This document shows, one piece after another, positions 19,934 to 48,700 of a stretch of DNA of 64,000 nt (position 1 is the first letter of the stretch; each line of letters begins with the position of its first letter). The DNA is from Paludisphaera rhizosphaerae. GTDB lineage: Bacteria > Planctomycetota > Planctomycetia > Isosphaerales > Isosphaeraceae. A program made the translations under genes and the position numbers. The notes beneath the pieces are model-generated. The model made no database searches. It saw nothing but the letters and a program-made list of their open reading frames with translations, and was not told where the DNA came from. Location of the stretch: assembly GCF_011065895.1 (NCBI RefSeq), contig NZ_JAALCR010000030.1, positions 1 through 64,000 of the forward strand, in the 5' to 3' direction.

Positions 19934-21331
19934 TCATTCCTCGTCGACGTCCGGAAACCCCAGTTCCTTGAGACGGCGATACAGACGAGGCCGCGAAACG
20001 CCCAGGATCTCGGCGGCGCGAGACTTGTTGCGACGGGCCCGAACCAGGGCGTTCTCGATCAACCTCCGCTCCACGTCGGTGAGGATCTCGTCGAGCGGCC
20101 TCGGCGGAGCCGGCCGGGGCGGGGGATAGGGGTCGGCGAGGTTTCCACGGACGTCGGCCGGGAGGTCCTTCTCGTCGACGAGCGTCCCGACGCCCTGGCC
20201 GTGGGCGTGTTCGACGACCCTCGCCAGTTCTCGCAAGTTCCCCGGCCAGTGATAGGCCGTCAGGGTCGATTCCGCCGCCGACGTGAACCCGGATCGCTGG
20301 ACTCCGCCCCGCAGATTAAGGCGTTCCAAAAAATGCTGAGCGAGCAGGGGGATCTCGTCGCGGCGGTCGCGCAGGGGAGAGAGGCGAATCGTCATGACCG
20401 AGAGAGCCAGGAAGAGGTCTCGGTGCAGGGTCTCGGCGAGAACCGCGGCTTCGGGTTCGGCCGTCGTGACCGCGAGGATTCGGACGCGGTGGTCGCCCGC
20501 CTCCAGAGCCCGAGCGAGCTTCGCCTGAAGATCGCGGGGCATGGCGGCCAGGTCGCCGATCAGCAGCGAGGAGCCGTCGGCCGCGGCGAGTCGAGGAGGT
20601 GCGACAGGTTCGGCCTCCCCCTCGACCGCCGTCGCGAACAACTCCCGGTCGAGAACCTCGGGAGGGAGGGCGGCGCAGTCGAAAGCCCGAAGCGACGGGC
20701 CGGTGAGTCCACCGACGGCCAGTTGATGCACGGCTCGCGCGGCGTGTCGTTTACCGGTTCCTGGTTCGCCGACGAAGAGGACCGGTCGACGGACGGCCGC
20801 GGCGACTCGGATTTGCTCCATCAAACGACGATGCGCCGGACCTGTTCCCACCATCGCATCAAAACCGAAACGGTCGGCCAGCGAGGCCCGGACGTCCATC
20901 AATCGGACGCGGAGCCGATGGCCCTCCGAAATCGGGGCGTCCGGCGGCTCGGGATCCTCGGCGTCGAGGACTCTCCCCAACATCCCCAGCAGGAAGCCCT
21001 GAGCGTCGAGGAACGGGAGAAACGCCAAACGACGGCGGAGACGGACGCCGTCGGGGCGGACGAACATCGTCGTGGTCGTCGCGGCGCGGCCGGCGAGCGC
21101 CTCGGGAGGCGGCGAGAGCCCGGCCGCGAAGTCGACGGCGTCCCCCGCGCCCGTCGAACCGTGGCCCAGACACTCGACACCGACCAGGACGTCGGCGGCC
21201 ATACCGGTCAGTTCCTCGAACGCCGGATTCACCCACGCGATGCGGAGGTCCGGGTCGAGCCAGAAGAGGGGATCGCGTGCCGACCGCCAGACCTGCTCCG
21301 GCCGAAGCGAGGAGGGGCGAGGCGACGGCAT
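19934..21331 (-). CDS. PAS-AAA+-Fis regulator without the sigma-54 contact loop
   Basis: The 465-aa product has a PAS domain (about 12-125: DPLFWLDPDLRIAWVNPAFEELTG), an AAA+ domain (about 155-395) and a Fis-type helix-turn-helix (about 420-460: RNKSRAAEILGVSRPRLYRRLKELG). Walker A is GEPGTGKR (188-195) and the sensor II region reads WPGNLREL. Two activator features are missing: the GAFTGA loop after ELF, where ATAVEGEAEPVA is found, and the Walker B acidic pair, where SLLIGDLA replaces FLDE. It probably cannot remodel sigma-54 polymerase. The ATG has GGGAGGG eight bases upstream. It follows a repressor-like gene by 32 bases. Confidence 0.85.
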   Translation of the reverse strand: MPSPRPSSLRPEQVWRSARDPLFWLDPDLRIAWVNPAFEELTGMAADVLVGVECLGHGSTGAGDAVDFAAGLSPPPEALAGRAATTTTMFVRPDGVRLRRRLAFLPFLDAQGFLLGMLGRVLDAEDPEPPDAPISEGHRLRVRLMDVRASLADRFGFDAMVGTGPAHRRLMEQIRVAAAVRRPVLFVGEPGTGKRHAARAVHQLAVGGLTGPSLRAFDCAALPPEVLDRELFATAVEGEAEPVAPPRLAAADGSSLLIGDLAAMPRDLQAKLARALEAGDHRVRILAVTTAEPEAAVLAETLHRDLFLALSVMTIRLSPLRDRRDEIPLLAQHFLERLNLRGGVQRSGFTSAAESTLTAYHWPGNLRELARVVEHAHGQGVGTLVDEKDLPADVRGNLADPYPPPRPAPPRPLDEILTDVERRLIENALVRARRNKSRAAEILGVSRPRLYRRLKELGFPDVDEE

Positions 21332-21363: not shown

Positions 21364-22173
21364 TCAGGCTTCGTCGAATCGACTCCACGACCAGACCACC
21401 CGGCCGACAAGGAAGCCGGGGACTGCCTCACTGATATCGATGGGGATCAGCGGATGGGCGCGGCCAGGTTGGTTGGGGCGAAGGATCAGGTGTCGGCCGC
21501 TGCCGTCGAGCCAGCGGATCATCAGTTCGCCGTCGTGCCGCACCGCGACGATCTTCCCCTGAAGATCGGACGGATCGGTGTCGCTGCGGTCGATCGCGAC
21601 GATCGAGCCCCGCGGCAACATGGGATTCATGGCGTCGTCGGCTACCTTCACGGCGATCGTCGCCGAGGGGTTGGGGAGCCACTGACGGAAAGCCATCACC
21701 CGACCCACGGCCAGCGCCGGGTCGACCACCGGCCCCATCAGGTCTTCAGGCAAGAAGACAGGCACGGCCAGGAACTCGCCGTTCTCCGGGCACGTGTGCA
21801 ACTTCCCGTCGAGTTCGACGGGCGGATGAACCGCCCGCTCACGCTCCAGTTTCTCCAGGCCTCGACGAATCAGCTCGATCGGCGAGAGGTCGGCTACCGG
21901 CCGATCTTCGCTCGCGGAGGCGTACCGAGCCCCCTCCCCCGATACGAGATAATTAGGCGACGCCCCCGTCAGCTCGATGAAAGCCAACAGGATCTCGGCG
22001 GGAACCGTCACGCCGGTTTCATAGTTGTACCAGGTGCGCGCCGGCAAATTCAGCCGACGAGCCAACTCAGGGCCCCCGTGGTCGCCGAAGAGTTCCTGAC
22101 GGATCTCCCGAAGTCGACGCGACAGAGCCGATCTAATCGTAAGCCGAACCTTTGGTGTTTTTTTCCGAGCCAC
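21364..22173 (-). CDS. LexA/CI-like HTH-S24 regulator lacking the catalytic dyad
   Basis: The 269-aa protein has an N-terminal helix-turn-helix (about 15-75: ELARRLNLPARTWYNYETG) and a C-terminal S24-peptidase-like fold (about 130-265). In LexA and CI the nucleophile sits in GDSMxP; here the motif is VADDAMNPML, with Ala181 for Ser. The general-base Lys in VKR is Arg220 (ELMIRWL). The protein should dimerise and bind DNA but not cleave itself. It lies just upstream of the PAS-AAA+ gene on the same strand, so the two may work together. Confidence 0.82.
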   Translation of the reverse strand: MARKKTPKVRLTIRSALSRRLREIRQELFGDHGGPELARRLNLPARTWYNYETGVTVPAEILLAFIELTGASPNYLVSGEGARYASASEDRPVADLSPIELIRRGLEKLERERAVHPPVELDGKLHTCPENGEFLAVPVFLPEDLMGPVVDPALAVGRVMAFRQWLPNPSATIAVKVADDAMNPMLPRGSIVAIDRSDTDPSDLQGKIVAVRHDGELMIRWLDGSGRHLILRPNQPGRAHPLIPIDISEAVPGFLVGRVVWSWSRFDEA

Positions 22174-22579
22174 GGCGCTCGTTCCAATTTAAGGGAGCCG
22201 CTCGGCCCCAGGATGTTCCAGGTCAAGCCACATAGGCACACGAAGAATCGCCTCGGCGCCACAGCCGGCAGGGTGCAAACCCTCCCCACGAGCAACCTTC
22301 GGCATTCACCCTTCCGTCCTGGCGGCTCAAGGTATCACACACCGCCGGTCCCGTCATTAGAAGACAGCTTTATGTATCAAGAAGGGTAGCCGGATGTCGC
22401 CATTTAGCAACCTCCAACCGCGCATGCGTTTCTGATTCCACACTCGTTGCCTTTTCGAGCCGGCAAAATGGCGAAAATTCAGCGCATAGGCGATCTTCCA
22501 GGCTTCGGAAAGCCGGGCGCACGGAGCCTGATTAGGGAAAGAGGCGATGGCGGCGGGGCGGGGCGGGATAGGGAACGAA
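22174..22579. other. Intergenic region, no gene seen
   Basis: About 400 bases lie upstream of the repressor-like gene and downstream of sufT. It is AT-richer around 22330-22500 and probably carries the promoter of the regulator pair. No RNA gene or strong hairpin was recognised. Confidence 0.5.
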
Positions 22580-22879
22580 TTAGAACATTCCGAGTTCGTC
22601 GCGGGCCTCGTCAGACATGCGATCAGGGGTCCATGGCGGCGACATCACGAGCTTGACGTCAACCTTGGACACCCCTTCCACCTTCTCCAGAGCGGCCACG
22701 GCGTTGCGGAGGATCTCCGGGCCCATCGGGCAGGCGGGGGAGGTCAACGTCATCTCGACGGCCACCTGGTCCTCCTCGGTTTGAACCGAATAGACCAGAC
22801 CCAGGTCGACGACGTTGACGTTCAGTTCCGGGTCGACGACGGTTTTGAGGGCCTGGACGAGCGCGTCGTGGTCGATCAT
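22580..22879 (-). CDS. sufT: Iron-sulfur assembly protein SufT-like (DUF59/MIP18)
   Basis: This 99-aa protein belongs to the DUF59/MIP18 family, whose bacterial members (SufT, PaaD-like) help mature Fe-S proteins. Typical features are the N-terminal LKTVVDPELNVNVVDLGLVY, the conserved cysteine in LTSPACPMGPEI, and KVDVKLVMSPPWTPDRMSDEAR. It ends the suf gene cluster and lies 36 bases from the Rieske gene stop-to-start, so co-transcription is likely. The length is normal for a stand-alone member. Confidence 0.9.
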   Translation of the reverse strand: MIDHDALVQALKTVVDPELNVNVVDLGLVYSVQTEEDQVAVEMTLTSPACPMGPEILRNAVAALEKVEGVSKVDVKLVMSPPWTPDRMSDEARDELGMF

Positions 22880-22915
22880 GGGGGTTCCTTCGGAAGTGGC
22901 GCGGGGGATGATCGA

Positions 22916-23230
22916 TCAGTCGTCGAGCCGGATGTAGACGCCGTCGTCGCGGACCTCGACGGGATGAGCCGGGACCGGCTCGACGGCCGGGAAGCAGAGG
23001 ACGGCGCCAGTGCGGACGTCGAATCGCGCCCCGTGGCGGGGGCATTCGATGCAGGTTCCGTCCAGTTCCCCATCAGCGAGCGGTCCGCCGTCATGCGTGC
23101 AGACGTCGTCGATGGCGTAGTATTCGTCGCCGATCCGGAAGAGGGCCACGTCGCGGCCATCCACCTCGACGACCTTGCGGTCGCCGGGGGCGAGTTCGGA
23201 CGCCTCGGCGATTTTGACGGTTTTCAACAT
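22916..23230 (-). CDS. Rieske-type [2Fe-2S] ferredoxin
   Basis: This 104-aa protein contains both halves of a Rieske site, CTHDGGPL (Cys, His) and CPRHGARFD (Cys, His), which would bind a [2Fe-2S] cluster through two Cys and two His. It resembles ferredoxin components of non-haem dioxygenases and the NirD-like group. The chosen ATG gives MLKTVKIAEASELAPGD and avoids overlap with sufE. A soluble Rieske ferredoxin inside suf clusters is seen in several phyla; its role there, possibly electron donation for cluster formation, is inferred. Confidence 0.9.
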   Translation of the reverse strand: MLKTVKIAEASELAPGDRKVVEVDGRDVALFRIGDEYYAIDDVCTHDGGPLADGELDGTCIECPRHGARFDVRTGAVLCFPAVEPVPAHPVEVRDDGVYIRLDD

Positions 23231-23253
23231 GGCAGGATCCCCGACAGCCTGGA

Positions 23254-23691
23254 TCAATGCCCTGCGTGCTGAAGCATGGCGACCCGAGCCACGTCGCGCT
23301 TGATACGGCGGAGCACCCCTGCGAGGCCGCGGACGCGCAGCATCCCCAGGACTTCGGTCAACCCGCAGCGGTCCACGAGGTCGCCGGGGACCTTCAACAC
23401 GTCCTCTGGGGCCGCGCCGTTGAGCCCTTCCAGCAGCAGCGAGACGAAGCCGCGAACGGTGGGCGCTTCGGCCGGGGCGTCGCCGTAGAGGGCGACCCGA
23501 TCACCGATCATCTCGACGAACAGATAGACCGGCGACTGGCATTCCTCCACGCGATGCTCGGCGTCCTTCCGCGCCTCCAGCTCTGGGGGGAGCGGCGGCA
23601 GGTTCTTGGCGAAATCGATCAAGAGGTCGATCCGCTCCTGGCGGTCGGACTCGCGTAGTTCGTCGATAATAGCGTCGAGGGCGGCTGGCAT
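23254..23691 (-). CDS. sufE: Sulfur acceptor protein SufE
   Basis: SufE takes persulfide sulfur from the cysteine desulfurase and hands it to SufBCD. The 145-aa product starts MPAALDAIIDELRESDRQERIDLLIDFAKNLPPLPP and carries the active Cys51 in HRVEECQSPVYL. The C-terminal half (VRGFVSLLLEGLNGAAPEDVL) also matches. The frame stays open far upstream, but similarity begins at this ATG. Its usual partner SufS is not in the cluster; a two-domain sulfurtransferase is encoded immediately upstream instead. Confidence 0.93.
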   Translation of the reverse strand: MPAALDAIIDELRESDRQERIDLLIDFAKNLPPLPPELEARKDAEHRVEECQSPVYLFVEMIGDRVALYGDAPAEAPTVRGFVSLLLEGLNGAAPEDVLKVPGDLVDRCGLTEVLGMLRVRGLAGVLRRIKRDVARVAMLQHAGH

Positions 23692-23758
23692 AGGAATCGT
23701 CTGCTCCTTCCGGCGTTGGGAGAGGGCCGGCCCCGGCTCGGGCGGTTCCGTACAAGCA

Positions 23759-23784
23759 GTCGGCTTCGCACGCGCGAAGCCGAC
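23759..23784. terminator. Perfect hairpin between sulfurtransferase and sufE
   Basis: GTCGGCTTCGC (23759-23769) and GCGAAGCCGAC (23774-23784) form an 11-bp perfect stem with an ACGC loop. It lies in the ~165-base gap between the sulfurtransferase stop and sufE start. It could attenuate transcription of sufE and the genes after it, or protect an mRNA end. Confidence 0.55.
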
Positions 23785-23857
23785 CGTCGGACGGGTCTGC
23801 GACCATCCGGGTTCGTTCCATTCTTCACGATGGCCCGTCGTCGGGCAAGTCGTGATC

Positions 23858-24718
23858 TCAGGCGCCGGGCCCACGCTCGATCGGCGCGCGGACCAGGTTG
23901 CCCCACTCAGTCCAGGAGCCGTCGTAATTGCGGACACGCGGGTATCCGAGCAGGTACGTCAGCACGAACCACGTCAGGCTGGAACGCTCGCCGATCCGGC
24001 AATAAGCGACGACGTCGTCGGCCGGCTTCAGCCCGGCTTCCTTCTCGAAAATCGTCTTTAGCTCGGGGACCGACTTGAACTTGCCTTCGTCGTCGACGGC
24101 GCGGCTCCAGGGGACGCTCTTGGCCCCAGGGATGTGGCCGGCGCGGAGGGCTCCCTCCTGGGGGTAGTCCTCCATGTGCTGCATCTCGCCGGTGAATTCC
24201 TTGGGGCTGCGGACGTCGATCAGCTTGCCGCCGGCCTTCATGTGGGCGAGCACGTCGTCACGGAAGGCGCGAATGGCCGCCTCGTCGCCGCCCGCGACCT
24301 TGTAATCGGTCCGAGGGTACGCGGGGGTTTCACGCGTGAGGGGCCGGCTCTCATCGATCCAGAGCTTTCGACCGCCGTTCATGATCTTCAGGTTCTTGTG
24401 GCCGAAGAGCGTGAACGCCCAGAAGGCGTAGCAGGCCCACCAGTTCGACTTGTCGCCATAGAAGACAACCGTCGTGTCCGAGCTGATGCCGCTCTTCGAG
24501 CAGAGTTCGGCGAACCGATCGGCGTTGATGTAGTCGCGGACGACCTGATCCTGGAGGTCTCCCTGCCAGTCGATCCGGACGGCCCCCGGGACGTGGCCCA
24601 GGTCGTAGAGCAAGAGGTCTTCGTCGCTCTCGACGATCCGCACCTTGGGATCGTCGAGATGGTCCTGAACCCACTGAGTCGAGACGAGAGCCTCGGGATG
24701 AGCGTACGCTTCTCCCAT
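23858..24718 (-). CDS. Two-domain sulfurtransferase (rhodanese)
   Basis: The 286-aa product has two rhodanese domains (about 8-125 and 150-280). The C-terminal one carries the active Cys240 in CRIGERS, the six-residue loop of thiosulfate sulfurtransferases (CRxGxR), whereas mercaptopyruvate sulfurtransferases have [23 protein letters not shown] and [18 protein letters not shown] are typical of the CysA-like actinobacterial/planctomycete group. Encoded between sufD and sufE, it may provide persulfide sulfur for cluster assembly; that role is inferred from position. Confidence 0.92.
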
Positions 24719-24748
24719 CGAACCAAACTCCCCGGCCTTCCCGGCCGA

Positions 24749-26086
24749 TCAAGAATCCCCGAGTTTCGCCGCGACGGCCCCGCGAAGGGTTTCGCGAACG
24801 GGGTCGAGGGTGATTCGGTCGTAGACGTTGGCGAAGAAGCCCTCGACGATCAGCCGGACGGCCGTCTCGCGGGGGATGCCGCGGGCCTGGCAGAGGAAGA
24901 TCATTTCCTCGTCCACGCGGCCGGCGGTGGCGCCGTGAGTGCAACGGACGTCGTTGGCCTCGATCTCCAGGCCGGGGATCGAATCCGCCCGGGCCGAATC
25001 CGAGAGGATCAGGTCGTCGTTCTTCTGGTAAGCGTCGGTGCGCTGGGCGTCCTTCTCGACGCGGATCATCCCCTTCCAGACGACCCGAGAGCGGTCCTTG
25101 AGGCCCCCCTTGTAGAGGAGGTCGCTCGTGGTGTGAGGCGCCTGGTGGTCCTGTCGCGTGAAGTAGGCGAGGTGCTGGCGGCCGGTCGTGAACATCACGC
25201 CGTTGACCTGGGCCGAGGCCCCCTTGCCGGCCAACGCGACCTCCTGGTTGACCTTCGACAGCCGCGAGCCCAGGGCCCCAACGGTCCACTGGAGGGTCGC
25301 GTCGGCCCCGACGACGGCCCGCTCGCGGGTGAAGTGCCAGGTGGCGTCGTCCCAGTTCTGGATGTTGACCAGACGGAGGTGCGACGACGCCTTCTGGAGG
25401 ACCTCAAGAGCCCCAATGTGCAGCCCCGGCTTGTCGCCGCGGCCGGCGCTCGCCGTTTCGCGGACGAGAGTGGCCTCGGCACCTTCTTCCAGCACGACCA
25501 GCGTGTGGCCGAAGTCGACGCGGCCGTCGGCCGACATGCCGGCGATGCTGAACAGCGGGAGTTCGACCTTCACGCCCTTCGGGACGTACAGCAGCGAACC
25601 GCCGCTCCAGAAGGCCGCATGAAGCGCCGCGAGGACGTCGTCCGACGGCTTGACGACGTCGGTCAGCAGGTGGTCGCGGAGGATCTCCGGATGGTCCTTG
25701 ACGGCCGTCTCCAGGTCGACGAAGACCGCGCCGCCGAGCTTCGCCGGGTCAGGCCGACGCACGACCGCGCCGTCGACGTGCTCGACGCCCGTCGCGTAGT
25801 GGGACGACAGCCCTTCCCAGAGCCCGTCGAAGGCGGCCTTGGCGGACGACGAGGGCTCGACGAGGGCGGGGGGCCCGAACTCGGCCGGCTTGAAGGCGCG
25901 GATGTCGGTCCGCCGCCACTCCTCGTCGCGCGAGGTCGGCCAGGCGAACGCCTGAAACCGCGCAAACGCCTGCCGGCGGCGGTCGACGAGCCAACCGGGC
26001 TCGTCCCGCCCCTTCAGAAACGCCTCGAAAGCGTCTTCAGTGAACCCGGCATGGGCCGTCGTCGTCGCGGAAGGGCTGCTACTCAT
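24749..26086 (-). CDS. sufD: Fe-S cluster assembly protein SufD
   Basis: SufD forms the SufBC2D scaffold with SufB and SufC. The 445-aa length is normal. The beta-helix core region has VDFGHTLVVLEEGAEATLVRE, LHIGALEVLQKASSHLRLVNIQNW, and ANDVRCTHGATAGRVDEEMIFLCQARGI, with the conserved His of CTHGAT that contributes to cluster formation. The C-terminal RLIVEGFFANVYDRI is family-typical. It is separated from sufB by ~230 bases with a hairpin, which is unusual inside a suf operon. Confidence 0.96.
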   Translation of the reverse strand: MSSSPSATTTAHAGFTEDAFEAFLKGRDEPGWLVDRRRQAFARFQAFAWPTSRDEEWRRTDIRAFKPAEFGPPALVEPSSSAKAAFDGLWEGLSSHYATGVEHVDGAVVRRPDPAKLGGAVFVDLETAVKDHPEILRDHLLTDVVKPSDDVLAALHAAFWSGGSLLYVPKGVKVELPLFSIAGMSADGRVDFGHTLVVLEEGAEATLVRETASAGRGDKPGLHIGALEVLQKASSHLRLVNIQNWDDATWHFTRERAVVGADATLQWTVGALGSRLSKVNQEVALAGKGASAQVNGVMFTTGRQHLAYFTRQDHQAPHTTSDLLYKGGLKDRSRVVWKGMIRVEKDAQRTDAYQKNDDLILSDSARADSIPGLEIEANDVRCTHGATAGRVDEEMIFLCQARGIPRETAVRLIVEGFFANVYDRITLDPVRETLRGAVAAKLGDS

Positions 26087-26276
26087 GTTGCTTCCAGAAC
26101 TTGAACATCAACGCGATGAAATCGACCACGCCCCCGCGCCTCGTTAGGTGCCACGGGCGGCGGCCCAGGAATCAGTAAGGAGCGACGACGTCGCGGGCAG
26201 ACCGTACCATACCATCCGCTGCGGCGTCGCTCGCGCTGGGGGCTCTGAGCGCACTCCGGCCCAGAGGCCGCAGAAG

Positions 26277-26305
26277 GTCGACCGCCGCTGTTCGTGACGG
26301 TCGAC
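26277..26305 (-). terminator. Hairpin after sufB
   Basis: GTCGACCG (26277-26284) pairs with CGGTCGAC (26298-26305) in a perfect 8-bp stem, 15 bases beyond the sufB stop on the minus strand and before a ~190-base spacer leading to sufD. It may stop a fraction of transcripts between sufB and sufD. No U-tract is seen. Confidence 0.4.
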
Positions 26306-26319
26306 TAACCAAAGCCCCG

Positions 26320-27735
26320 TCAGCCGACGGAGCCCTCCATCTGGAGCTGGATGAGCTTGTTCATCTCGACGGCGTACTCCATCGGCAGCTCCTTGACGAG
26401 GGGCTCGATGAAGCCGCTGACGATGAGGGTGCTCGCCTCAGCTTCGGAAAGGCCGCGGCTCATCAGGTAGAAGAGCTGCTCCTCGCCGATCTTGGAGACG
26501 CTCGCCTCGTGGCCGATCTTGACGTCATCCTCGTCGATCTCGATGTACGGATACGTGTCGGACCGGCTGGACGGGTCGAGGATCAGGGCGTCGCAGACGA
26601 CGTTCGACTTCGACCCCTTGGCGCCGTCGGTCACCTTCAGGAGGCCGCGGTAGCTGGCCCGGCCGCCGTTCTTGCTGATGCTCTTGGAGATGATCCGCGA
26701 GCTGGTGTAAGGGGCGGCGTGGACGACCTTGCCGCCGGCGTCCTGGTGCTGGCCGGCGCCGGCGAAGGCGATCGAGAGGATCTCGCCGCGGGCGCCCTTG
26801 CCGACCATGTAGACGGCCGGATACTTCATCGTCAGCTTGCTGCCGAGGTTGCCGTCGACCCACTCCATGAGCGCGTCTTCGTGGGCCACGGCCCGCTTGG
26901 TGACGAGGTTGTAGATGTTGTTGGCCCAGTTCTGGATCGTCGTGTAGCGGCAGCGCCCGCCCTTCTTGACGACGATCTCGACCACGGCCGAGTGCAGGCT
27001 CTCCGACGAGTACATCGGGGCCGTGCAGCCCTCGACGTAATGGACCTGAGCGCCTTCCTCGACGATGATGAGGGTCCGCTCGAACTGGCCCATGTTCTCG
27101 GCGTTGATGCGGAAGTACGCCTGGAGCGGGACGTCGACCTTCACGCCGGCCGGGATGTAGACGAACGAGCCGCCGCTCCAGACCGCCGAGTTCAGCGCCG
27201 CGAACTTGTTGTCGGCGATCGGGATGATCGTGCCGATGTACTCGCGGACGATGTCGGGGTATTCGCGGACGGCCGTGTCGGTGTCGACGAAGATCACGCC
27301 CTTCTTCTGAAGGTCTTCGCGAAGGCTGTGGTAGACGACCTCCGACTCATACTGAGCGCCGACGCCGGCGAGGAACTTGCGCTCGGCTTCGGGGATGCCC
27401 AGCTTCTCGAAGGTGTTCTTGATCTCGGCCGGGACGTCGTCCCAGCTCCGCCCTTGGCGGTCGGCGGCCTTCATGAAGTAGCGGATGTCGTCGTAGTTCA
27501 GCTCCGAGAGGTCGCCGCCCCAGAGCGGGGTGGGCTTCTGGAAGAAGGTCTCCAGGCCCTTGAGGCGGAAGTCCCGCATCCAGGCGGGCTCGTTCTTCAT
27601 CTCGGAGATCTGCTCGACGATGTGCTTCGTGAGCCCCTTGCCGCTCTTGAAGGCGTAATTGGCGTCGGAGTCGCGGAAGCCGTACTTGTACTCCTCCTTG
27701 ATCCCCGCCACCTGCTGGTTCAGATCGGTCGACAT
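26320..27735 (-). CDS. sufB: Fe-S cluster assembly protein SufB
   Basis: SufB is the core scaffold subunit on which Fe-S clusters form. The 471-aa product shows [47 protein letters not shown] with the conserved Cys that receives sulfur, and [25 protein letters not shown]. The N-terminus ([18 protein letters not shown]) is also family-typical. sufC lies 50 bases upstream, consistent with co-transcription. Confidence 0.97.
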
Positions 27736-27786
27736 CTCGCGTCCCCTCGTCGTATGAGTGTTCGTCGCCGCGGTCGGGTGGGTGGG

Positions 27787-28626
27787 TCAGGCGCCCACGC
27801 CCTGGGCGTTGGGGTTGGCGGCTTCCAGCTCGTCCTCGCGACGGGCGGCGTCGGGGTACTTGGCGCGGACCCAGTCGTAGCCTTCGCGCTCAAGCTGCTT
27901 GACCAGCTCGGGGCCGCCCTGCTCGACGATCTGGCCGCCGAAGAGGATGTGGACGAACTGGGGCTTGATGTAGGTGAGGATCCGCTCGTAGTGGGTGATG
28001 ACGAGGATCCCCGTCGAGTACTTGCCGGCGACCCGGTTGACCCCCTCGGAGACGATCCGGACGGCGTCGATGTCCAGGCCGCTGTCGGTCTCGTCGAGGA
28101 TGGAGAAGGCGGGGCGGAGCATGGCGAGCTGGAGGATCTCAGCCCGCTTCTTCTCGCCGCCGGAGAACCCCTCGTTGAGGTAGCGGCGGGCGAACTCGTG
28201 GTCCATGCCCAGGTCGTCCATCTCCTGGCGCAGCTCCTTGCGGAAGTCGCGCATCGGGATCAGGTCCTGGCCTTCCAGCCGTTCCGGGTTGCGGACGTTG
28301 GTGACCGCGTGGCGGAGGAAGTTGGCGACGGTCACTCCGGGGATGGCGGTGGGGTACTGAAAGGCCAGGAAGATCCCCGCCTTGGCCCGCTCGTCGGGCT
28401 CCATGGCCAGGACGTCCTCGCCGTCGATCGTGACCGACCCGCCCGTCACCTCGTAGTTGGGGTGGCCCATCAGGGCGTAGCTCAGGGTGCTCTTGCCCGA
28501 GCCGTTGGGGCCCATCAGGGCGTGGACTTCGCCCTGCTTGATGGTCAAATCGACCCCGCGGAGGATCTCCTTACCCTCGACGGCGACGCGCAGATTCTCG
28601 ATCTTCAGGACCTTGCTCATCGACAT
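27787..28626 (-). CDS. sufC: Fe-S assembly ATPase SufC
   Basis: SufC is the cytosolic ABC ATPase that drives conformational change in SufBCD. The 279-aa protein has Walker A GPNGSGKST, a normal signature FSGGEKKRAEI, Walker B FSILDETDSGLD and VITHYERI as H-loop. All catalytic residues are intact, in contrast to the ABC protein at 1454. The ATG abuts the stop of sufR (TAAATG), so translation may be coupled. A second ATG lies two codons downstream. The C-terminal ~25 residues (AARREDELEAANPNAQGVGA) extend beyond the common length. Confidence 0.97.
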   Translation of the reverse strand: MSMSKVLKIENLRVAVEGKEILRGVDLTIKQGEVHALMGPNGSGKSTLSYALMGHPNYEVTGGSVTIDGEDVLAMEPDERAKAGIFLAFQYPTAIPGVTVANFLRHAVTNVRNPERLEGQDLIPMRDFRKELRQEMDDLGMDHEFARRYLNEGFSGGEKKRAEILQLAMLRPAFSILDETDSGLDIDAVRIVSEGVNRVAGKYSTGILVITHYERILTYIKPQFVHILFGGQIVEQGGPELVKQLEREGYDWVRAKYPDAARREDELEAANPNAQGVGA

Positions 28627-29328
28627 TTAAACCCTGTTGACGTCGTCTTCAAATGGGACCCGGGCGAGCTTGCGGGGGAGGGGGGATTCGGGGACGATTC
28701 CCGGGATCGGCGGCTTCGCTTCAAAGTCGCACGACCGGTCGCCGTCGAGGCGGCACTGGGAGAGGGTCAGCCCCTTGCCCAGCACCTTCTCCAGCATCTT
28801 CCGCTCCAGGGCGCAGATCGCCCGGTCCAGTTCGGCCAGCTCGTAGTAAGGGCAGGAATGCTGGCGGAGGAACGCCGGCCGATCATCCCCCTCGCGGGCG
28901 ACCTCGACCTCGATTCCTCGAACCTGCAAGAGCCCGCTGAGCTGGACCAGTCGGCCTTCCCAGGCTTCCCCTTTGACCTGGGCCCGATACATCTCGGCCA
29001 GGCGTTCGGTGATTCTCGTGAACAGTTGTCGGCGAAGCTTGCGGTCTTCGACCGACGTCATCATCTCTTCCCAGAGGACCACGGCCAGGTCGGCGTAGTT
29101 CTGCCCCAGCCGTTTATGAGCCGCGGCGCTGGCCCGGTAAGCGTGCTTGGGACGACCGCGGCCGTCCTGCCGCGATTCCCGCTCCACCAGCCCGGCGCCC
29201 AGCAACCGCGACAGCCGATTTCGCACGGCCGTCCCGGTCACCTTCATCTCCGCGGCCATCTCGCAGACCGTCAGAGGACCCCGGCGGCGGATCAGGTCCA
29301 GCAACACTCGATCCGACGATTCCGACAT
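28627..29328 (-). CDS. sufR: SufR-type Fe-S-sensing transcriptional repressor
   Basis: The 233-aa protein has an N-terminal winged helix (about 5-65: LTVCEMAAEMKVTGTAVRNRLSRL) followed by a helical linker and a C-terminal cysteine cluster with C159 (HSCPYYEL), C192 (SQCRLDG) and C200 (DRSCDFE), the expected cluster ligands of SufR. In cyanobacteria and actinobacteria SufR with its cluster represses the suf operon and releases it when the cluster is lost. It is the first gene of the cluster, abutting sufC, so autoregulation is likely. Confidence 0.93.
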   Translation of the reverse strand: MSESSDRVLLDLIRRRGPLTVCEMAAEMKVTGTAVRNRLSRLLGAGLVERESRQDGRGRPKHAYRASAAAHKRLGQNYADLAVVLWEEMMTSVEDRKLRRQLFTRITERLAEMYRAQVKGEAWEGRLVQLSGLLQVRGIEVEVAREGDDRPAFLRQHSCPYYELAELDRAICALERKMLEKVLGKGLTLSQCRLDGDRSCDFEAKPPIPGIVPESPLPRKLARVPFEDDVNRV

Positions 29329-46413: not shown

Positions 46414-46569
46414 CTGCTGAAGACCGGCCCGCGGATCCCGCTCAGCCAGTTCTGGACGGCCCTTTCCCAAGCCGAACGCGAGCGGACGCTCTTGACGCTC
46501 AGCCGCGTCGTCGCCAAGCAACTGCCCCGGCCTCCCGTCGGAGAGGGGGGCGATCATGAGCGTACTTGA
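46414..46569 (+). pseudogene. Remnant of a recombinase-associated small frame
   Basis: The frame reads LLKTGPRIPLSQFWTALSQA, then ERERTLLTLSRVVAKQLPRPPVGEGG, and ends 14 bases inside the recombinase gene. Codon use is normal for this genome. No ATG or GTG start lies in frame near the beginning; the region further upstream stays open for at least 25 codons without one. Small proteins of this type (LSQxWxxLSxxxRxxxLxxLSRVVAxQL) often precede this kind of recombinase in my recollection, so this is probably a copy that has lost its start. Confidence 0.4.
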
Positions 46570-48700
46570 AGGGGCCGTCCGCGTCAGCGCGCTGCGATCG
46601 TCGAAGATCCTCGACGTCCACCTCGACCGCCTCGCCGTCGTCTACGTCCGCCAATCCGACCCCCAGCAGGTGCTCAATCACCGCGAATCCCGCGAGCGGC
46701 AGTACGCCCTCGCCGATCACGCCGCCGCCCTCGGGTGGCCGAGGGACCGTGTCCTGGTCATCGACGACGACCAGGGGATGAGCGGCCGGTCGGCCGACCG
46801 GCGGGGCGGATTCCAACGCCTCCTGGCCGAAGTTACCATGGAGCACGTCGGCCTGATCCTCGGCATCGAGATGAGCCGCATCGCCCGCAACAGCAGGGAT
46901 TGGCACAACCTCCTGGAGATGTGCGCCATCTTCGGGACGATCCTCGCGGACGAAGACGGCGTCTACGACCCGCGGGACACCAACGACAGGCTCCTGCTCG
47001 GCCTGAAGGGGACCATCAGCGAATTCGAGCTGGTCACGATGCGGAATCGACTGGAACGAGGCCGGTTGAACAAGGCCCAACGCGGCGAGCTGTTCCACCG
47101 CGTGCCGACCGGCTACGTCAAGCTCTCCACGGAACGGGTCGAATTCGACCCCGACGAGCAGGTCCGCGAGGTCATCCGCCTGATCTTCGACAAATACGAC
47201 GAGATCGGCACCGCCTGGGGCGTCTTCCACTACCTGATCCGCAACAACATCAAGATCGGGTTCCGCCCGTTCCACGGGCCCAATCGCGGCAACCTGGAGT
47301 GGCGACGCCCCGTGCTGCTGACCGTCTTCCAGATCCTGCGACATCCGATCTACGCCGGGGCCTACGCCTATGGGCGTCGGCCTCACAAGCACGTCCGGAC
47401 GGCCGACGGCGAGCGTACCGGCGTCGGCCCGTGGGTCCCGATGGAGCAATGGAAGGTTCTGAAGCGCGACTGCTTGCCGGCCTACATCACCTGGGAACGC
47501 TACCTGGCGAATCAAGAATCCCTGCATCAGCACCGATCCGGCCCGGGCTGCAAGGGGAGCCCCCGCGGCGGCTCCGCCCTGCTCGCCGGTCTGATCGTCT
47601 GCGGCAACTGCGGGCGCTGCCTCCAACCGTCCTATCGGACTCACGCTCGGGCCTATTACAGTTGTGTCCGACACCTCCACGAAGGGACGGAGCAGACGTG
47701 CTTCGGCCTCAAGGCCGCGGTGGTGGACGATCTCGTGGTGCAGCAGGTCCTTCACGCCCTGGAACCCGCCGCGCTGGAGTTGAGCTGCCGGGCGCTGGAG
47801 GATGTCCAGCAGGACCGCGCCCGACTGGACAAGCACTGGAAACAGCGGCTGGAGCGGGCCCGATACGAGGCCGTGGACGCCGAACGGCGCTACCGGGCCG
47901 TCGACCCGGAGAACCGCCTCGTGGCCCGGTCCTTGGAACAGCGGTGGGAGGAGACGTTGCGGGCCGAGCGCCAGGTCGGCGACGATTACGATCGGTTCCT
48001 TCGGGAACAGCCGCCGCAACTCTCGCGCGACGAGCGGGCCCTCATCGCGGCCCTCTCCTCCGACCTGCCCGCGCTCTGGCATGCGCCCGACACGACCGAT
48101 CAGGACCGCAAGGAGATCGTCCGCCACCTGGTGGAAAGGGTCGTGGTCCAGGTGAAGAACGACAGCGAATATGTGGACGTCGCGATCCACTGGCAGGGCG
48201 GGCTTGTCAGCCGGCACGAGGTCGTGCGGCCGGTCAGGACCTACGAGCAGCTCCGCGACCTCGACAAGCTCATGGACCGAGTCGTCGCGTTGCGCCACGA
48301 GGGTCGCACGGCGGCGGAGATCGCCGTGTGCCTGAACCAGGAGGGTTTCGTTCCGCCGAAGCGTTGCGGCGAGTTCTATCCCGAACTCGTCCACGAACTG
48401 CTCGTGCGTCGCGGCCTGTCGAACGAGAAGAAGTACGCCGACCAACTCGGGTCGGACGAGTGGTGGCTGCCGAAGCTGGCCGAAGCGGTCCCGGTGTCCG
48501 CCGGGAAGCTCGCCGACTGGGCGCGCCGGGGATGGCTCCATTCCCGCAGAACTCCTGCGCAGCACCTGTGGATTCTCTGGGCCGACAAGCAGGAGTTGAA
48601 GCGGCTTCGCAAGCTCGCCGCCTCGTCACGCCGTGGGATGGTGGAATATCCGGCCGATCTCACCACCCCGAAGGAGCGCCACCGTGGGGGACATGGTTGA
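46556..48700 (+). CDS. Large serine recombinase
   Basis: The 714-aa protein has a resolvase catalytic domain (about 25-170) with Ser34 in YVRQSDPQQ and arginines in HRESRERQ and MSRIARNSRDWHNLL; a Recombinase domain (about 180-320: FDKYDEIGTAWGVFHYLIRN); a zinc ribbon with Cys 349, 352, 370 and 382; and a coiled coil (about 410-480). A C-terminal ~120-residue region with two helix-turn-helix-like parts follows (GRTAAEIAVCLNQEGFVPPK, SAGKLADWARRGWLHSR). Enzymes of this type insert or excise DNA at att sites. GC content and codon use match the host. Confidence 0.93.
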   Translation: MSVLEGAVRVSALRSSKILDVHLDRLAVVYVRQSDPQQVLNHRESRERQYALADHAAALGWPRDRVLVIDDDQGMSGRSADRRGGFQRLLAEVTMEHVGLILGIEMSRIARNSRDWHNLLEMCAIFGTILADEDGVYDPRDTNDRLLLGLKGTISEFELVTMRNRLERGRLNKAQRGELFHRVPTGYVKLSTERVEFDPDEQVREVIRLIFDKYDEIGTAWGVFHYLIRNNIKIGFRPFHGPNRGNLEWRRPVLLTVFQILRHPIYAGAYAYGRRPHKHVRTADGERTGVGPWVPMEQWKVLKRDCLPAYITWERYLANQESLHQHRSGPGCKGSPRGGSALLAGLIVCGNCGRCLQPSYRTHARAYYSCVRHLHEGTEQTCFGLKAAVVDDLVVQQVLHALEPAALELSCRALEDVQQDRARLDKHWKQRLERARYEAVDAERRYRAVDPENRLVARSLEQRWEETLRAERQVGDDYDRFLREQPPQLSRDERALIAALSSDLPALWHAPDTTDQDRKEIVRHLVERVVVQVKNDSEYVDVAIHWQGGLVSRHEVVRPVRTYEQLRDLDKLMDRVVALRHEGRTAAEIAVCLNQEGFVPPKRCGEFYPELVHELLVRRGLSNEKKYADQLGSDEWWLPKLAEAVPVSAGKLADWARRGWLHSRRTPAQHLWILWADKQELKRLRKLAASSRRGMVEYPADLTTPKERHRGGHG

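Follow-up and report, generated by a model that had tools for sequence, protein, structure and literature searches.

The window analysed here, a stretch of 64,000 nucleotides from Paludisphaera rhizosphaerae, encodes a protein with the appearance of a LexA/CI-type repressor, and the locus raises the question of how such a regulator is switched if it cannot cut itself. The original prediction placed an S24 fold at positions 21364-22173, read the nucleophilic Ser as Ala (DDAMNP) and the Lys as Arg (LMIRWL), and considered RecA-stimulated autocleavage impossible. The PAS-AAA+ protein encoded 32 bases downstream was proposed as carrier of the relieving signal. The features of the locus are listed below.

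19934..21331, reverse strand: protein with PAS domain, sigma54-type AAA+ domain and Fis HTH; GAFTGA absent, Walker B degenerate (Pfam, alignment, synteny)
21364..22173, reverse strand: XRE HTH + S24-fold regulator, 269 aa, GTG start, Ala181/Arg220 (Pfam, alignment, fold comparison)
21436..21687, reverse strand: Pfam S24 region, residues 163-246, with degenerate dyad (Pfam and alignment)
21955..22128, reverse strand: HTH region, residues ~16-73, of which residues 29-60 are almost invariant family-wide (Pfam and family alignment)
22174..22205, reverse strand: conserved 32-base leader element, directly 5' of the GTG start (family alignment)
22206..22579, reverse strand: remainder of the 406 bases that separate sufT from the S24 gene, with a promoter-like site there in several relatives
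22580..29328, reverse strand: SUF Fe-S assembly cluster, upstream, a conserved neighbourhood (synteny)

The predicted fold was borne out by domain search and by structure comparison. Residues 163-246 of the window protein matched the Pfam family Peptidase_S24 with an E-value of 7.6e-11 (42.2 bits vs a cut-off of 23.3), and residues 16-73 matched HTH_31 with 25.6 bits, slightly below the cut-off of 27; among 31 family sequences scanned, Peptidase_S24 was matched by all and HTH_31 by 27 at E 0.01. An AlphaFold2 model made from an alignment of 31 sequences had a mean pLDDT of 80.7, with about 93 in the S24 half. In VIA-align the S24 part of the model superimposed on Thermotoga LexA with Z 15.2 and 2.4 A over 119 residues, on LexA crystal structures with Z 14 to 15, and on lambda CI, UmuD' and phage 186 CI with Z of about 11 to 14, while XRE structures matched the N-terminal HTH with Z 7 to 8.5. 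The top Foldseek match of the model was 2fjr (phage 186 CI). A profile search of the PDB sequences returned nothing at E 0.01, and the kinship is visible through fold comparison. Two membership features of the LexA/CI-type self-cleaving repressors, the S24 fold and an N-terminal DNA-binding HTH, are present, and conservation of the gene in 42 genomes with 37-73% identity shows that the reading frame is not due to chance. In the family alignment the linker is variable and HTH residues 29-60 are nearly invariant, which implies a DNA target that has probably remained unchanged.

DDAMNP and LMIRWL occupy residues 179-184 and 217-222, respectively. When the family HMM was aligned to planctomycete LexA proteins, Ala181 aligned with the Ser of GDSM and Arg220 with the Lys of ATVKRL, in agreement with both predicted substitutions; Ser and Lys were both intact in the planctomycete LexA controls from other families. 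The window protein is devoid of the Ser nucleophile and of the Lys general base, and no Ala-Gly or Cys-Gly cleavage site was found in its linker. In the linkers of its relatives such pairs are sporadic and at no common position. Arg occupies the Lys position in 42 of 42 orthologues and in 18 of 19 paralogues. The Ser position contains Ala in 28 orthologues and Ser in 14; once the paralogues are included, the tree requires no fewer than 11 changes, near the random scatter of shuffled labels. Because Arg is invariant and the Ser position flips, the loss of Lys is most readily taken as the change that became fixed, and the Ala in this genome as incidental. The Ala/Arg pair noted at the outset is therefore conserved in its Arg, but the replacement of Ser by Ala is not the defining step; Ser alone persists in a third of the orthologues, and the Ser + Lys pair occurs in none. 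Lys would have been replaced before the family Isosphaeraceae radiated, the nucleophile position drifting since. L164, from another planctomycete family, joins an XRE HTH to an S24 end of the GDSM type, and only its HTH aligns well; this architecture suggests what may have been a cleavable ancestor of the S24 regulator.

Since Arg stands in place of the Lys general base in every orthologue, neither the window protein nor any other member of its family should be able to cleave itself by the LexA mechanism, and the predicted block to RecA-stimulated autocleavage thus extends family-wide. Lacking the three defining features of self-cleaving S24 repressors, the family should not be classed with them. 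The genome has its own canonical LexA at C29:26070, which lies above the TIGR00498 cut-off in an equivalog model search, retains the Ala-Gly site, GESM and ATLKK, and has an intact dyad. The window protein was considered as the SOS LexA of the genome and ruled out, TIGR00498 picking C29:26070 instead; SOS control would rest with the canonical LexA, apart from the S24 regulator.

Non-cleaving S24 regulators are already known, and by analogy the family would work like these. The LexA of Synechocystis sp. PCC 6803 has no cleavage site and no catalytic Ser and still regulates genes; it is not an SOS switch, and phosphorylation has been proposed as its control (PMC4759255, PMC7567884). Phage 186 CI is relieved by the antirepressor Tum (PMC7708051). 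With Synechocystis LexA the window protein shares the state of an S24-type regulator without Ala-Gly site and without catalytic Ser; it differs in its XRE-type HTH, in the fixed Lys-to-Arg replacement, and in coexisting with a separate canonical LexA, whereas the Synechocystis protein is that organism's own LexA. With coliphage 186 CI it shares an HTH joined to an S24-fold domain, but the phage protein is a prophage immunity repressor with a known antirepressor and the gene described here is a core chromosomal one. The window protein shares its C-terminal fold with LexA, lambda CI and UmuD (Z ~11 to 15), which, unlike the S24 regulator, have both an active Ser-Lys dyad and a cleavage site.

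The S24 gene was found in 42 of 45 Isosphaeraceae genomes, including those of Paludisphaera soli, Singulisphaera acidiphila, Aquisphaera insulae and Tautonia sociabilis, and full-length matches were not found beyond Isosphaeraceae elsewhere in the class. Most genomes contain a second copy (34-41% identical). The paralogue in the same genome as the window (L063, positions 6593-7450 of C10) is of XRE-S24 type, is also Ala/Arg, and is convergent with the gene of a small P-II-like protein. Public MAGs titled Candidatus Kuenenia and Alphaproteobacteria (L147-L150) contain the S24 locus; their titles are probably wrong. Among the papers searched, none treated LexA together with Isosphaeraceae.

The start of the gene is conserved as well. 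GTG is the start codon in 38 of 38 distinct orthologues, and the scored neighbours (SufT, SufB, SufD and rhodanese) start with ATG in 63 of 64 cases, where only matches beginning at the first residue could count. The leader has the family consensus TTCCCG-N4-CGGGATCGAGCGCC, with a partly degenerate stem in the window itself (TCCCTTAAATTGGAA); its conservation is limited to some 30 bases immediately ahead of the start codon, and farther upstream the sequence is not conserved. The element could fold into a short stem that covers the ribosome-binding site, or act as a palindromic operator: RNAalifold gave a stem of 5 pairs whose covariation term was close to nil (-0.08), too weak to tell an RNA hairpin from a DNA palindrome. 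In a search of 36 genomes with the leader sequence model, the S24 gene was the sole clear match per genome; second sites in G002 and G004 were rejected as operators, being inside a coding gene. A PWM scan of the loci found no convincing site ahead of PAS-AAA+ or SUF, and neither search revealed target genes or operators beyond the S24 gene's own leader. The shared operator that was to be sought upstream of both regulator genes was not found, as the leader element does not recur before PAS-AAA+. Many relatives have promoter-like sites some 110 or 200 bases ahead of the S24 gene; one of the form nTGACn-N17-TAnnTT, at about -200, was detected in several relatives and by eye only in the window's own sequence. 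Judging by these sites, the gene is probably transcribed from a promoter of its own, with a long leader. The conserved weak GTG start and the leader favour dosage control or autoregulation as one possible layer.

The usual gene order is SUF cluster, S24 gene, dgoK (on the opposite strand, where present), PAS-AAA+ and lpxB. The SUF cluster comprises a SufR-like HTH regulator, sufC, sufB, sufD, rhodanese, sufE, Rieske and sufT. Elsewhere in the window, positions 46556-48700 (forward strand) contain a 714-aa ORF resembling a large serine recombinase. The gap of 32 bases between the S24 gene and PAS-AAA+ was correctly given if PAS-AAA+ starts with the ATG at 21331; read from the in-frame GTG at 21388, PAS-AAA+ would overlap the S24 gene, but the genus relatives align from about the ATG. 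PAS-AAA+ lies downstream on the same strand in 34 of 42 genomes. In five genomes it was not found downstream as far as sequence was available (four belong to genus g17 or are closely related to it; the fifth is G029, where only 1.9 kb could be judged), and its position could not be determined in the remaining three. The gene dgoK, assigned as 2-keto-3-deoxygalactonokinase by PF05035, separates both genes in 12 genomes (loci L016, L019, L021, L023-L027, L037 and L044-L046, the last three being the deepest branch). Two further contigs show dgoK and then end, a 93-aa dgoK remnant is located between both genes in G011 (L011/L082), and G016 has kept sufT-dgoK-PAS-AAA+ with the S24 gene missing. The order with dgoK is likely ancestral, and the lack of dgoK from Paludisphaera and a number of other genera is most simply explained by repeated loss, which would have brought the two regulator genes together and left the 32-base gap. 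Because the opposite-strand gene intervenes in 12 genomes including the deepest branch, the tight spacing is most likely a derived trait, and so is any operon. The gene pair is thus conserved as synteny and not in its close spacing, and PAS-AAA+ is probably not an ancestral operon partner. PAS-AAA+-Fis proteins of the sigma54-activator type are present in Isosphaeraceae and also in certain relatives from other families. Most PAS-AAA+ orthologues retain Walker A, and the WPGN motif and Fis HTH are also kept. GAFTGA is absent from every aligned orthologue and Walker B is degenerate in nearly all, whereas the control AAA+ protein L157 has GAFTGA and an intact Walker B. With these motifs lost or degraded, PAS-AAA+ is unlikely to drive sigma54 promoters; the window has no match to a sigma54-type promoter pattern.

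Several explanations were weighed for the control of the regulator. That PAS-AAA+ carries the signal relieving it, the two forming an operon-encoded pair, is suggested by the same-strand position downstream and by the close or slightly overlapping genes in Paludisphaera, but the proposal is weak and highly doubtful in view of the intervening dgoK and its remnant in G011, the separation of the genes in genus g17 and in G029, and the absence of a common leader element; moreover, G016 lost the S24 gene yet kept PAS-AAA+, and relatives of PAS-AAA+ in other families occur without an S24 gene. A tie to Fe-S assembly, with the regulator controlling the adjoining SUF operon or being controlled by it, agrees with the location of sufT directly upstream on the same strand in 33 of 42 genomes and with four genomes in which an inverted SUF operon has remained next to the gene, SufR being divergent. 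Such a tie is nevertheless unlikely: SUF already has a SufR-like regulator, the gap before the S24 gene has promoter-like sites of its own, in genus g6 the gene does not adjoin SUF, no further copy of the leader element occurs at SUF, and the arrangement could be plain synteny.

The remaining readings concern the S24 domain itself. Arg can act as a very weak base, and slow cleavage in the Ser-bearing orthologues may be conceivable. A residual or unusual autocleavage with Arg as base instead of Lys, at high pH or in Ser-bearing species only, would fit the 14 orthologues that retain Ser, but with Ala in the other 28, the window protein included, and no conserved Ala-Gly or Cys-Gly site, it is extremely improbable. 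Alternatively, the dead S24 cleft might have been turned into a sensor pocket, with an anionic ligand bound by the invariant Arg. This is quite unlikely; if true, a self-cleaving repressor would have given rise to a one-component switch that the whole family shares and that is linked to Fe-S or cell-envelope physiology.

The preferred explanation, which we regard as probable, is an XRE-type regulator with a dead-protease S24 domain that does not cleave itself and is switched without proteolysis by a ligand, a partner or dosage. The S24 domain would be retained as a dimerisation module, possibly also binding a ligand or partner, and the regulator, be it a repressor or an activator, would act as a stable dimer, as its fold suggests, on one or few operators, with the almost unchanging HTH as the DNA contact. 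Self-cutting would not take place in the cell because an invariant Arg replaces the Lys general base and the cleavage site is missing; its activity would therefore be controlled non-proteolytically, through the docking of a small molecule or protein on the S24 domain or through the amount produced.

The family would represent a natural case of a self-destructing repressor made permanent, with Arg fixed at the base position and drift between Ser and Ala at the nucleophile position, the pattern to be expected where catalysis has been lost but the fold is still needed. An 'S24 peptidase' annotation is no proof of SOS control, and tight gene spacing within one genus can be a by-product of the loss of an intervening gene.
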